This document shows positions 137 to 4,873 of a DNA stretch of 34,710 bases, in pieces (position 1 is the stretch's first letter; each line of letters begins with the position of its first letter). The notes under the pieces were generated by a model. It did no database searches, was not told the DNA's origin, and saw nothing but the letters and a program-made list of their open reading frames with translations. The DNA is from Lachnospiraceae bacterium (lineage in GTDB: Bacteria > Bacillota > Clostridia > Lachnospirales > Lachnospiraceae), in contig JAFUTQ010000060.1 in the NCBI GenBank assembly GCA_017484135.1, forward strand, positions 1 to 34,710, given 5' to 3'. Made by a program: the position numbers and the translations under genes.

Positions 137-1009
137 TTACTGATTCTCTTCACGTCTTTTTACATCATCAACAATCATCTTCATAACCGTCTGATTATCC
201 ACACGCAAAGAACCATTCGCCTGCAATTCCAAAATCATTCTACCATTCAGCTGATTAACTAATCCTCCCGCTGCAACCCAGACTTCTTTTGTCTTAGCTT
301 TTTGATCAAAATACTCTTTTACCAAATAAAGATTTCTAAATTCCGTGGGATTATTTTGTTCGTAGACTGCACCAAGCAACACCTCAATATTTTCAAGGCG
401 ATCATCTTTAAATTTTATAACCATTTCTCTATGTTTATTGAGTGTTACTGTTTGCGCTTTTCCACATAATGTTGTCATTATTCCTATATCTGATGTTGAT
501 ACTTTATATCGACGTCTCATCCTGCCATGAACTCCGTCTTCTCCTTCATCGCCATATACGATACGACCACCCGCTGCGGTTTCAACTGTTGTTGCACCAG
601 TTCCCTTTCTCTGACCAGTATTTTTCTTTTTATTGTCAGAGTTTTTATCTTTTTCTTTTTTAGGCTGGACAGGATTCATATAGTCGTTAGAAATACGTCT
701 CACTGCATCATTTACCTGCTTTTCAGTAAATACTCCATCCATACGTACACTTGACATACGTTCTTGATAATTTCCAATCTTGTAATCACAATCTGGATGA
801 TGTTGTTTGTCATCTACTGCCTTCAAAAAACAGGTCTTTCCACCATTTTTAGAACTATGAACTAAGCACAACCTAGCATTACATTTTTTACCAGGGCAAA
901 GGAATGCTCCTTGTGTTTCATGCTTTTCAAGTTCTTCCGTTGACATATTCGTGACATCCATATCTTGAACAATGCCATCTCCTACATATTTAATTCTCTT
1001 ATACTTCAT
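137..1009 (-). CDS. Hypothetical protein with N-terminal Cys/His zinc-binding cluster
   Basis: This 290-residue protein is not one I can assign to a family. The N-terminal part holds C38, C43, C48, C60, H70, H71 and C74, spaced like a structural zinc site. Residues about 115-140 form a Lys/Asn-rich, probably disordered linker, followed by a C-terminal mixed alpha/beta region of about 140 residues. There is no signal peptide or membrane segment. The start is supported by an AGGTGAT ribosome-binding sequence ending four bases before the ATG. It lies on the same strand as the ATPase/TOPRIM pair but behind a terminator and a long leader, so it is probably transcribed separately. Its base composition is AT-rich like that pair and unlike the ribosomal genes. 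It could be an accessory gene of the same island; the function is unknown. Confidence 0.75.
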   Translation of the reverse strand: MKYKRIKYVGDGIVQDMDVTNMSTEELEKHETQGAFLCPGKKCNARLCLVHSSKNGGKTCFLKAVDDKQHHPDCDYKIGNYQERMSSVRMDGVFTEKQVNDAVRRISNDYMNPVQPKKEKDKNSDNKKKNTGQRKGTGATTVETAAGGRIVYGDEGEDGVHGRMRRRYKVSTSDIGIMTTLCGKAQTVTLNKHREMVIKFKDDRLENIEVLLGAVYEQNNPTEFRNLYLVKEYFDQKAKTKEVWVAAGGLVNQLNGRMILELQANGSLRVDNQTVMKMIVDDVKRREENQ

Positions 1010-1187: not shown

Positions 1188-1211
1188 GAGTTGAAGCTGC
1201 AACTTCAACTC
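1188..1211 (-). terminator. Intrinsic terminator after the TOPRIM-like gene
   Basis: A perfect 9-bp stem (GAGTTGAAG/CTTCAACTC) with a 6-base loop starts 40 bases past the TOPRIM-like stop codon. On the minus strand it is followed shortly by GTTTTT, and on the plus strand directly by TTTTGTTTT, so it could work in both directions. Confidence 0.7.
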
Positions 1212-1250: not shown

Positions 1251-1961
1251 TCACTGACACATCTTTTTTCTAACCTTTTCTTTAATATATAGATAAAAAT
1301 TAGTTTTTCGTTTTAATGAGTTTGTACTTGCTCTAATAAAATCCCATGATTCTATGTATGTTTTCCCTGAAAATAATTGCTCATCATCAAAAAATTCTGC
1401 AAATTCTTGGGGTTTATTTATGTACGTATCTTCAAACTTCCGCGCTAATTTATCTTTCTCTTGCTTCGATAAATTAGCTTGGCTATGTAGAACATGATCC
1501 ATATTACACGAGAAAAAATAAACACTATACGGAATACATGTCCAAACTTTTGATATACTAAGCATTTTATTAACCACTTCTTGCTTCTGATGATTTCTCT
1601 TTTTGATTCCTGACACATCCTTACATCTTATTGTATCAAGTTCATATATCAATCCGCCATTTTCTGATTCACTTACATTTTCATCCGGAACAAAAGCACC
1701 ATCCATATCTATCAAATGAACAACCTCCAAATAGTCATTTTGTTTAAATACTCTTCCACTATGCTTTTTTACAATATCTCCAACTTTGGCTGCTATATTT
1801 ATCGGATTCGTCCCAATCCTTGTTGTGATATCTCCGTCTGTGATTTCGAAATGAATTTCATCGTCGTTTAATAGTTGACTAAGACACAACGCCAAACTGG
1901 TTTTATCATTAATTCCTTCTACAATAAACAAAATTATCTTCTTTCTATTCGGCATTTTCAT
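1251..1961 (-). CDS. TOPRIM-like protein paired with the ATPase; candidate defence effector nuclease
   Basis: The protein has 236 residues from the chosen ATG. It begins with a hydrophobic strand and a VEG..D motif (E15, D19), and carries an IDMDG motif (D85, D87) after a beta-alpha region. Glutamate followed by DxD is the acidic signature of TOPRIM folds as in OLD-family nucleases and the DUF4435/AriB effectors of PARIS. The C-terminal half is charged and not recognised. The start overlaps the end of the upstream ATPase gene by about 17 bases, implying translational coupling. A TTG start at 1988 is also open but lacks a ribosome-binding site, and an ATG at 1955 is a close alternative placed after GGTGAT. 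The nuclease role is inferred from motif and pairing. An RloB-type or other TOPRIM protein is possible. Confidence 0.75.
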   Translation of the reverse strand: MKMPNRKKIILFIVEGINDKTSLALCLSQLLNDDEIHFEITDGDITTRIGTNPINIAAKVGDIVKKHSGRVFKQNDYLEVVHLIDMDGAFVPDENVSESENGGLIYELDTIRCKDVSGIKKRNHQKQEVVNKMLSISKVWTCIPYSVYFFSCNMDHVLHSQANLSKQEKDKLARKFEDTYINKPQEFAEFFDDEQLFSGKTYIESWDFIRASTNSLKRKTNFYLYIKEKVRKKMCQ

Positions 1962-3366
1962 CACCGGCCAATCTAAATGCTCTAGCAATCATATATGGAT
2001 TTGTTGCCTCATAAATACATTCATTCTGTCCGCCAAGTACAATATCATGAAAATATACATCTCTGAAATTATTATTTGCTTTTACATTCTTAAATCTAAT
2101 ATAACGATTATTTTCATTGGTGGTTGTAAACATGATATTTTTGTTATTCAGTACTTCCAATGCCCTTAAATTGTGTGATGTAAAAATCAATTGTCCTTTT
2201 CCTGATTCTTCAACAACTCTTAAAATCTCACCTAACAGGTATTCGAAAATTCCAGAATCAAATTCATCAACTACCAGTGTCATAGAACTATCATTAAATA
2301 CTAAAATCAAACAATATAAAATTGACACTAATTTCTTCACTCCATCTGACTCATAACGCAATGGAATTTCTACATTCGTTCTTTTAGCAATAATCTCAGC
2401 TTTAACTATTTCTTCGCCTTTCTTATTTAAGCTACTACTCAACTCTTTCAAACTAATTGTTAATCTAGGAATAATTTCTTTTAATACTAAACTAATAGCA
2501 TCCATTTTTGCCTGAATATCTCCAAAAAACTTTCTAGGAATTGGAGATACTCCATTCAAATTCAAGCACCCTTTAAGCAAGGATATTCTATCTTTTTCTT
2601 TTGAAACAATTGAAAAAGGCAGTGCAATATTTGCATTAATCATTCCAGTATCTTCACTACTAAACACATGGAGATTATATATTGCATATTCCGTTAATAC
2701 TTTAAAAATAAACTTATATTCATCTTCCCATTTCGAATCCCGAATCATCTTCCTAAGCTCTTTAGAAAACAAAAAGGAACGTTCTTCTTTTGCTGCCAGT
2801 AACCTCAATACCCTTATTTCATCTATTAATTCTTGCTTTCCCTCTGTCAATAAATTATATCTATTTTTGGGCAAAATTTCATTACTACCAGCATTATAAT
2901 ACAAAATTGGTGTCATCTTTGTCCATTTATCATTTATCACCCTTGCCATTGATATTTTTTCTGATACAAGATAAGCCCCATTACGCTTTTCATGTTCCTC
3001 TTCATCAATATCATCATTCTCTTCAATATGTTCATCAACCACTTTTCTTACCAAATCAAATTCGTAGATAACTTTATACAAATCATCTTCGCTACTTGTC
3101 ACAGAAAATTCAACGGTAGCTCCAGCTGTTGATTCACCAATCTTAATATAATTACCTAAATCTTGTACTAGACTTTTCCCCGTCAAAAGATCTTTAAGTA
3201 CATCAATTGCATATACCAAAGTTGTCTTTCCAGAGCCATTCTGTCCATACAGTCCTAATATATCGGATGCTACACTATTCTTAGTCGCAAATTTAACACA
3301 TCCATATCCTACATTTTTCAAATTTCTTAATTCTACTTTTTGAAGCCTAACAATTTCCCGTTTCAT
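1945..3366 (-). CDS. AAA/ABC-type ATPase (OLD/AriA-like), upstream partner of the TOPRIM-like gene
   Basis: A 473-residue soluble ATPase of the SMC/ABC-like AAA class seen in OLD, RloA and PARIS AriA proteins. Walker A is GQNGSGKT at residues 41-48, an ABC-signature-like SDGVKKL lies near 337, Walker B VVDEFD has its acidic pair at 367-368, and a switch histidine sits in TSH at 398. A negatively charged insertion (DDIDEEEHEK) lies near residue 120. The start is set by GAAGGAG nine bases upstream. A longer frame opening at 3408 would begin upstream of the predicted transcription start and is rejected. The downstream gene overlaps its end, so the two form one unit. By analogy the ATPase would sense a phage trigger and release or activate the nuclease partner. 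The family is clear; the defence role is inferred. Confidence 0.85.
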   Translation of the reverse strand: MKREIVRLQKVELRNLKNVGYGCVKFATKNSVASDILGLYGQNGSGKTTLVYAIDVLKDLLTGKSLVQDLGNYIKIGESTAGATVEFSVTSSEDDLYKVIYEFDLVRKVVDEHIEENDDIDEEEHEKRNGAYLVSEKISMARVINDKWTKMTPILYYNAGSNEILPKNRYNLLTEGKQELIDEIRVLRLLAAKEERSFLFSKELRKMIRDSKWEDEYKFIFKVLTEYAIYNLHVFSSEDTGMINANIALPFSIVSKEKDRISLLKGCLNLNGVSPIPRKFFGDIQAKMDAISLVLKEIIPRLTISLKELSSSLNKKGEEIVKAEIIAKRTNVEIPLRYESDGVKKLVSILYCLILVFNDSSMTLVVDEFDSGIFEYLLGEILRVVEESGKGQLIFTSHNLRALEVLNNKNIMFTTTNENNRYIRFKNVKANNNFRDVYFHDIVLGGQNECIYEATNPYMIARAFRLAGDENAE

Positions 3367-3406
3367 ACGTATATACTCCTTCAATTGTATTCTTCTTACA
3401 TTTATC

Positions 3407-3435
3407 ATAGTATACTATTCTGCCCCACTTGTCAA
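3407..3435 (-). promoter_or_regulatory. SigA-type promoter of the ATPase/TOPRIM unit
   Basis: On the minus strand TTGACA (3430-3435) is followed after 17 bases by TACTAT (3407-3412). Transcription would start near 3400, about 35 bases before the ATPase start codon. The pair therefore has its own promoter and does not depend on the tuf operon. Confidence 0.6.
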
Positions 3436-3633
3436 TCACATTTTGATTTCAGTACAAAATGTTCTATTTTTCATTTTTATTATATTCATTGTTTTTGATA
3501 TTATACCAATTAGAGATTTTACTATTTTTATAATGATATTGTTCTTATACTTATGTAGGACATTTTTTCTCTTCTTGGCACCGTTTCGACACCGCTTACG
3601 CTTATTTTCATTCTTACATACGCGTAAAATAAA
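3436..3633. other. AT-rich spacer between tuf terminator and accessory patch
   Basis: About 200 bases of very AT-rich sequence without a credible gene, repeat or att-like site. It marks the junction between the GC-richer tuf operon and the AT-rich accessory genes. I see no integrase or transposase remnants. Confidence 0.4.
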
Positions 3634-3663
3634 AAGGCCTCCGAGGGAACTCTCGGAAGCCTT
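3634..3663 (-). terminator. Intrinsic terminator of the str/tuf operon
   Basis: A 12-bp stem with one mismatch (AAGGCTTCCGAG/CTCGGAGGCCTT on the minus strand) and a 6-base loop is followed by TTTATTTT. It lies 22 bases after the tuf stop codon and closes the ribosomal supercluster. Confidence 0.9.
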
Positions 3664-3685
3664 GATTTTACTGTATTATTTACAA

Positions 3686-4873
3686 TTACTCAATGATCGT
3701 AGCCACACGACCAGAACCTACGGTTCTACCACCCTCACGGATAGCGAATGTAAGACCCTGCTCCATTGCTACCGGATGAATCAGCTCGATGGTCATCTCT
3801 ACGTTATCACCAGGCATGCACATCTCTGTGCCGGACGGCAGCTCGCAAACACCTGTAACGTCGGTTGTTCTGAAATAGAACTGCGGACGATAGTTATTTA
3901 AGAACGGTGTATGACGACCACCCTCGTCCTTTGTCAGAACGTATACCTGAGCGGTAAACTTTTTGTGGCAGGTTACCGTACCCGGTTTTGCAAGAACCTG
4001 TCCACGAACGATCTGATCACGGTTGATACCACGAAGCAGAGCACCGATGTTATCTCCGGCCTGAGCCTCATCCAACTGCTTGCGGAACATCTCGATACCG
4101 GTTACAACGGTCTTCTGAGTCTCTTCCTTCACACCAAGGATCTCCAGTTCCTCATTCAGATGCAGAGTACCACGCTCTACTCTACCTGTTGCAACAGTAC
4201 CACGACCGGTAATCGTAAATACGTCCTCAACCGGCATCAGGAACGGCTTATCTGTATCACGCTGAGGATCCGGAATATAGTCATCAATTGTTGACATTAA
4301 TTCCATGATCTTATCGCCCCACTCTCCGTTCGGATCTTCCAGAGCCTTTAATGCAGAACCCTGAATGATCGGGCAATCTGTGAAGCCATACTCCTCCAGC
4401 TGCTCCGTTACTTCCATCTCTACCAGCTCGATCAGCTCAGGATCGTCTACCATATCACACTTGTTCAGGAAAACAACGATGTAAGGTACACCTACCTGAC
4501 GAGACAACAGGATGTGCTCCTTTGTCTGAGCCATAACACCGTCAGTAGCAGCTACAACAAGGATTGCACCATCCATCTGTGCAGCACCGGTAATCATGTT
4601 CTTTACATAGTCAGCGTGGCCCGGACAGTCAACGTGTGCATAGTGTCTCTTCTCTGTCTCATACTCAACGTGAGCGGTAGAGATTGTGATACCTCTCTCT
4701 CTCTCTTCCGGAGCCTTGTCAATGTTCTCAAAGTCAGTAGCTTCGTTACCTGCAACTCTCTCTGCCAACACCTTTGTGATCGCAGCGGTCAGGGTTGTTT
4801 TACCATGATCGACGTGACCGATGGTACCAATATTACAATGTGGTTTGGTTCTTTCAAACTTAGCTTTAGCCAT
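3686..4873 (-). CDS. tuf: Elongation factor Tu
   Basis: EF-Tu delivers aminoacyl-tRNA to the ribosomal A site with GTP hydrolysis. The 395-residue protein is full length. G1 is GHVDHGKT at 19-26, the switch II DCPGH motif follows near 81, and the NKCD guanine-specificity motif lies near residue 136. Domains 2 and 3 are complete, ending in the usual GRVATIIE-type tail. It is the last gene of rpsL-rpsG-fusA-tuf, separated from fusA by 101 bases that contain a promoter of its own. AGGAGG precedes the ATG by 10 bases. No second tuf copy is visible here. Confidence 0.99.

Follow-up and report, generated by a model that had tools for sequence, protein, structure and literature searches.

Organization of the locus

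The stretch of DNA analysed here (the window) comprises 34,710 nucleotides of contig JAFUTQ010000060.1 from a Lachnospiraceae bacterium. Directly past tuf (positions 3686 to 4873) lie two genes on the minus strand that we call A and S (Table 1). In the ORF listing of the window, the open frame of A spans positions 1945 to 3408 (487 codons) and that of S positions 1251 to 1955 (234 codons). The original prediction, made from the letters of the window, of an ATPase gene followed by a separate, overlapping TOPRIM-like gene holds at this level: both frames are present and overlap by 11 nt, a length seen more often than any other in relatives (43 of 74 rows). S has an alternative start 6 nt upstream, at position 1961, which gives the residue numbering used in that prediction.

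The sequence TTGACA-17-TACTAT is found at positions 3435 to 3407. Because the ATG at 3408 is overlain by the −10 box of this motif, whereas that at 3366 has AAGGAG just upstream, and because most A genes of relatives start near the point matching 3366, A more likely begins at the latter position, giving a protein of 473 residues. The same site had been proposed as the pair's own promoter. The motif is indeed there and is kept in a close relative, L075, as TTGACA-17-TATTAT, but promoter-like sites in the region are not in excess (12, for a mean of 14.5 in shuffled sequences). Terminator-like sites number 3 for a shuffle mean of 1.0, and they include the proposed hairpin at 1188 to 1211, which was detected on both strands. 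The description of the locus as an AT-rich patch was also correct: the G+C content of A and S together is 31.2%, and none of 145 overlapping, equally long segments across positions 3686 to 34710 falls below 41.3%.

Table 1. Features of the A-S locus and the observations on which each is based
Feature	Coordinates	Strand	Basis or remark
Gene A, ABC-type ATPase	1945..3366	−	AAA_21 and AbiLi matches; ATPase motifs; start from −10 box and AAGGAG
Gene S, divergent TOPRIM-like protein, 234 aa (alternative start 1961)	1251..1955	−	Conserved acids; profile scores
A/S overlap, 11 nt	1945..1955	−	ORF coordinates; commonest value in relatives
Promoter-like TTGACA-17-TACTAT	3407..3435	−	Motif scan; kept in L075
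Terminator-like hairpin, 40 nt past the end of S	1188..1211	−	Scored on + strand as well
290-codon gene adjoining the pair	137..1009	−	96% nt identity to L075, versus 85% for tuf; no family at E 0.01
17-base imperfect repeat past tuf, one mismatch versus GGTGCCNAAACGGTGCC	3577..3593	−	Possible integration site (inferred)

Conservation of the pair and properties of its proteins

Both genes were present in the window and in all of the first 44 loci fetched. In the complete set of 128 loci, all found through S and with duplicates included, 127 have A on the same strand as S and upstream of it; the sole exception is a contig that starts 68 bases before S (L130). The recurrence of the same order argues that the pairing is not due to chance. 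The pair is a unit on its own, as predicted. The distances among A proteins and among S proteins correlate at 0.84 over 59 pairs, and none of 2000 permutations gave a value above 0.20. This correlation shows that A and S are co-inherited, not that they are in contact. When 975 neighboring ORFs of 120 to 400 residues were clustered, the largest cluster other than the pair had 13 members, so that no third component is apparent in this size range. Neither a conserved helicase nor a conserved reverse transcriptase partner was seen among these neighbors.

After removal of duplicates, the 128 loci were reduced to 121 distinct ones. Both genes are intact in 109 of them, including one with a single intact ORF and a split match (L144). 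S is broken and A intact in 6, one of which is borderline (L046); A is broken and S intact in 2 (L127 and L255); both are broken in 1, and 3 run into contig ends. As A is twice as long as S and the loci were found through S, one would expect more broken copies of A than of S, and by our own arithmetic the probability that 6 or more of 8 broken copies are those of S is about 0.02. Draft-genome errors could lie behind some of the broken copies. L255 is a viral contig in which only the last part of A precedes an intact S, beside phage-like frames (positions 1831 to 2575), reflecting either recombination or an assembly junction.

The A protein contains a P-loop, GQNGSGKT (residues 55 to 62), an ESDG signature (residues 353 to 356), a Walker B sequence, VVDEFD, and a TSHN switch. 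Our alignments comprise 25 pairs (A1 and A2), 64 S proteins (A3) and 59 A proteins (A4); in the last of these the P-loop, the ESxG signature, the Walker B Asp-Glu and the H-loop vary little or not at all. The Pfam AAA_21 model matches A with an E value of 1.8e-13, and sequences of solved structures gave ABC-type or RecF matches. Among PADLOC models, AbiLi came first (3.1e-27), followed by AriA (8.2e-15) and mad3 (2.9e-13), and AbiLi (PDLC02335), AriA and mad3 were each matched by all 25 A members at E 0.001. The AriA-type ATPase of the initial proposal is borne out by the model match, though the AbiLi model scores better. The reference ATPases for a tree were taken from RloB (22), DUF4276 (4), HEC-01 (1) and OLD (5) loci, leaving out 3 of 25 RloB loci that gave no ATPase. 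The 25 members of the A family formed one group with a support of 1.0, and the 22 RloB-paired ATPases formed a separate group (support 0.999), the node joining the latter with the A family having a support of only 0.66.

No Pfam, NCBIfam or PADLOC model recognizes the S protein of the window, the few matches listed being weak and unrelated, and its comparison with sequences of solved structures gave nothing usable. In 64 relatives Glu13, Asp42, Asp83 and Asp85 are invariant, and Asp17 is found in at least 90%. We take Glu13 and the Asp83/Asp85 couple to represent the TOPRIM motif, i.e., a Glu after strand 1 and a DxD after strand 3. The acids initially singled out as E15/D19 and D85/D87 correspond to E13/D17 and D83/D85 in the 234-codon frame, and are therefore among these conserved positions. 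When 25 S members were searched singly against Pfam, DUF4276, Toprim and OLD-like_TOPRIM were the commonest among the best 25 of 35 families (11, 9 and 7 members, with best E values of 0.0011, 0.0011 and 0.011, respectively). At E 0.1, 4 of 10 members searched singly gave a TOPRIM-type match starting at residues 7 to 13. Chance families score just as high in these searches, and single S sequences therefore prove little about TOPRIM.

A profile of 86 S members scored 34.2 against OLD TOPRIM (probability 36%), 28.0 against RloB (10%) and 24.3 against DUF4276 (4%). The highest score with 10 unrelated clusters used as decoys was 18.4 (11 clusters were available, one being S itself, and some are antisense frames), and reversed references reached at most 17.4. 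As yardsticks, OLD scored 34.3 against RloB and 27.1 against DUF4276, and RloB scored 17.6 against DUF4276. The RloB score covers the S core only, residues 4 to 88. The single DUF4435 sequence compared with the S profile scored 12.1, i.e., at decoy level. RNase M5, tried as a reference TOPRIM protein, gave a weak match in 1 of 40 genomes and was dropped, and HEC-01B was found in 1 of 148 genomes, too few for a profile. Among the families suggested for such a search by the original prediction, OLD TOPRIM and RloB thus stand above the ten decoys, with low probability, and DUF4435 gives no signal. These profile matches are weak but agree with one another, and we take S to be a putative, divergent TOPRIM protein. 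The second half of S is conserved as well: N151, H154, K167, W204 and S213 are invariant in the 64 members, and R216 and N219 nearly so. This part was not aligned to OLD, RloB or DUF4276 in the profile comparison.

Distribution, mobility and genomic context

Of 397 genomes of the taxonomic family, 41 carry S, counting that of the window, as do 7 of the 398 genomes in a phylum sample. When a single genome was scanned for each species, 348 relatives of S were identified among 366 candidate stretches; the 80 that we kept are mostly from Clostridia, with records from Fibrobacter, Desulfovibrio and Ruminobacter among them. The A-S pair belongs to a large family, numbering in the hundreds, that has not been named. 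Four of eight genomes of the genus carry S, namely the window's, G925, G926 and G924; in G925 and G926 it lies on contigs other than that of tuf, and the G924 copy is partial and contains a stop. Presence of the pair is thus patchy, which disposes of the possibility, raised with the original prediction, that every strain of the family has it at this locus. S was also found on three plasmids, partially on a fourth, and in one Clostridioides phage record. In viral contigs, an alignment search identified four relatives of S, and a single-protein search none.

A near twin of the locus, L075/L250, occurs in a metagenome-assembled genome of an uncultured Acetatifactor sp., where tuf is followed by the A-S pair, the 290-aa gene, and genes for an XRE-type repressor, a tyrosine integrase and an AAA_25 protein. 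The next gene presumably codes for a relaxase, judging from a motif; it matches three small plasmid records. Identity between the window and L075 is 79 to 89% in tuf, 79 to 82% over most of the gap and 88 to 98% from about position 3441 to position 148. The dS value is highest in tuf (0.83), followed by A (0.34), the 290-aa gene (0.19) and S (0.10), which argues that the cargo moved later than the chromosomes diverged. The 290-codon gene has a dN/dS of 0.055 against L075 and, from its identity to L075, was transferred along with the pair; it matches nothing in phage or plasmid records.

The 17-base site GGTGCCNAAACGGTGCC past tuf is exact in L075, G056 and G366. A search of nine genomes found four exact copies, in three of them, and none of the reversed control. 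The imperfect direct repeat is located at positions 3577 to 3593 in the window, 3359 in L075, 1259 in L233 and 87 in L236. G366 is devoid of S, and the sequence past its site looks by eye like the end of the XRE-type repressor gene seen in L075. The repeat past tuf in several congeners is possibly the target of a tyrosine integrase, and we infer that an integration site lies past tuf and that the A-S pair is the cargo of an element. A second exact copy of GGTGCCNAAACGGTGCC was observed in L251 (G929:C38, positions 1253 to 4122), where the contig also carries a further tyrosine-integrase-like frame and an XRE-like gene, both named by reading. No repeat was seen to mark the far end of the element. 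Its remaining parts were not found in the genome of the window, an 83% complete assembly in which the contig stops at this point.

Among the neighbors of the pair are four genes with TraG/VirB4-type ATPase matches, five with NlpC/P60 matches and two with phage integrase matches. These fit a location on mobile elements, and the A-S unit was apparently brought in by such an element. In four Clostridia loci (L085, L100, L102 and L103) the pair is flanked by similarly laid-out genes, including NlpC/P60 and TraG-type matches, a layout that suggests a conjugative element.

A link to defense islands had also been considered. At E 1e-10, 132 neighbor genes (of 195 called in 51 loci, from 150 of the 195) match 55 PADLOC families, and 119 control genes, drawn from a different set of genomes, match 39. 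The best 25 of the 55 families include JetD, AbiE, Lamassu-type and AbiLi matches among the neighbors, and the best 25 of the 39 include retron-type reverse transcriptases, AbiL and PDC-S01 among the controls. As only the best 25 families were compared per set, both sets contain defense genes and the genome sets differ, we claim no enrichment: the neighborhood of A-S is not clearly richer in PADLOC defense genes than control stretches. Elsewhere in the window's genome, an RloB-family stretch above the Pfam cut-off is found at a contig end (G000:C74:221-526, L189), and an AbiL-type system may also be present in this genome.

Possible function and relation to known systems

The interpretation that we favor, with moderate confidence, is that A-S is a split, OLD-like ATPase-TOPRIM abortive-infection unit with an effector family for which no model exists, carried as the cargo of an integrative element inserted past tuf. 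A would assemble, sense a phage product and, presumably in a complex, normally keep S inactive. Once released, S would act as a metal-dependent TOPRIM nuclease cutting cellular nucleic acid, most likely tRNA as does AriB, and its activity would stop growth before phages mature. The unit thus would probably work as a sensor and a nuclease against phages. In favor of this interpretation are the fixed order of the genes and their correlated distances, the matches of all 25 A members to the AbiLi, AriA and mad3 defense ATPases, and the weak matches of S to the partners of such ATPases and to TOPRIM families, its profile score with OLD TOPRIM being about that between OLD and RloB. The patchy presence, the plasmids and phage record, the transfer shared with L075 and the 6-to-2 pattern of broken copies also support it. 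Against it stand the chance-level E values of single S members for TOPRIM, a profile probability of 36% at best, the lack of a DUF4435 signal and the absence of clear defense enrichment among the neighbors. In addition, the NetFlax authors offer a phage-defense role of such pairs as no more than speculation, and an AAA-neutralized pair of theirs was negative in a phage screen (PMC10440598). For one OLD protein, the TOPRIM domain was reported to be dispensable for anti-phage phenotypes (PMC13261556).

A mechanism like those of PARIS and AbiL is our best reading, with DNA cleavage and addiction as its main rivals. The same immune unit might use S to cut phage or plasmid DNA rather than tRNA, a reading that we consider less likely. 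OLD proteins cleave DNA (PMC10568477), and S has its best profile match in OLD TOPRIM; on the other hand, the split ATPase/TOPRIM architecture fits PARIS, whose effector is a tRNase (PMC12409363), and the present data favor neither substrate. Alternatively, A might be an antitoxin and S a toxin whose role is to keep the mobile element in the cell, with no phage sensing. Neutralization of toxicity has been reported for AAA:TOPRIM_OLD pairs (PMC10440598), and the excess of broken S over broken A is suggestive in this respect. On the other hand, A has the make-up of a full ABC-type ATPase and is most similar to those of defense systems, and errors in draft genomes may account for some of the broken copies; we regard addiction as improbable. 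Still more improbable is a housekeeping or DNA-repair pair of the element, with a RecF/SMC-like ATPase, a RecR-like TOPRIM protein and no immune role. SMC_N and RecF do match A (9.5e-08, below the cut-off of SMC_N, and 0.00029), but AbiLi is far better (3.1e-27), the pair is free-standing among the clustered neighbors, and it is missing from most relatives.

Among known systems, AbiL of Lactococcus (AbiLi/AbiLii) resembles A-S in having two genes, and its AbiLi model is the best match of A. However, AbiLii is an RloB-type effector (PMC10440598), none of 25 S members matches AbiLii, and the A clade is separate from the RloB-paired ATPases. In PARIS, AriB is held by AriA and, once freed by a phage protein, cuts tRNA (PMC12409363). 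Like A-S, PARIS combines a gene for an ABC ATPase, whose AriA models match A, with a separate TOPRIM gene. In contrast, AriB is absent from all 15 PADLOC families matched by 25 S members, DUF4435 is absent from the best 25 of their 35 Pfam families, and the window's S has no DUF4435 match at E 1. The gene order, likened originally to that of PARIS and split OLD systems, is therefore not matched by support for PARIS membership, which would also imply that a phage trigger such as Ocr sets a tRNase free. As S matches no AbiLii, AriB, RloB or DUF4435 model, we file A-S under neither AbiL nor PARIS.

OLD nucleases, Gabija GajA and the OLD protein of Retron-Eco8 likewise have an ABC ATPase working with a TOPRIM domain, but in one fused chain. 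A-S has separate, overlapping ORFs in the window and two ORFs in the relatives scored, and so does not belong to OLD classes 1 to 3. A GajB helicase or PtuB HNH partner, as in Gabija or Septu, is missing, with no shared third cluster among ORFs of 120 to 400 residues and no HNH match for the window's S. A matches the ATPases of the PADLOC candidates HEC-01, PDC-M12 and MADS (mad3/mad4), and some S members weakly match their partners, i.e., HEC-01B (4 of 25, best E value 0.0029), PDC-M12B (2 of 25, 0.00075) and mad4 (3 of 25, 0.001), unlike the S of the window itself. Also comparable is the NetFlax pair of TOPRIM_OLD D60 and AAA D29 from Streptococcus agalactiae 2603V/R, an AAA ATPase and a separate TOPRIM_OLD protein for which toxicity neutralization was tested, as it was for an RloB-type counterpart, D44 of Clostridium algidicarnis (PMC10440598). 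By description, the D60 pair might belong to the same family as A-S.

Among the papers listed in searches of the literature available, none was recognizable as describing the A-S family. A 2025 paper states that the function of TOPRIM nuclease domains is largely unknown (PMC12409363). More tentatively, and with less than even confidence, we propose that A-S represents a separate, unnamed ATPase-TOPRIM immune family, spread in Clostridia and beyond by mobile elements, whose effector has a second conserved half. If so, that half would imply a new substrate or a new mode of holding by the ATPase. Standard defense annotation would miss S and at best label A as AbiLi or AriA. If active, A-S would tie integrative elements of Clostridia to phage defense and add another TOPRIM effector to the group formed by PARIS, AbiL and OLD.
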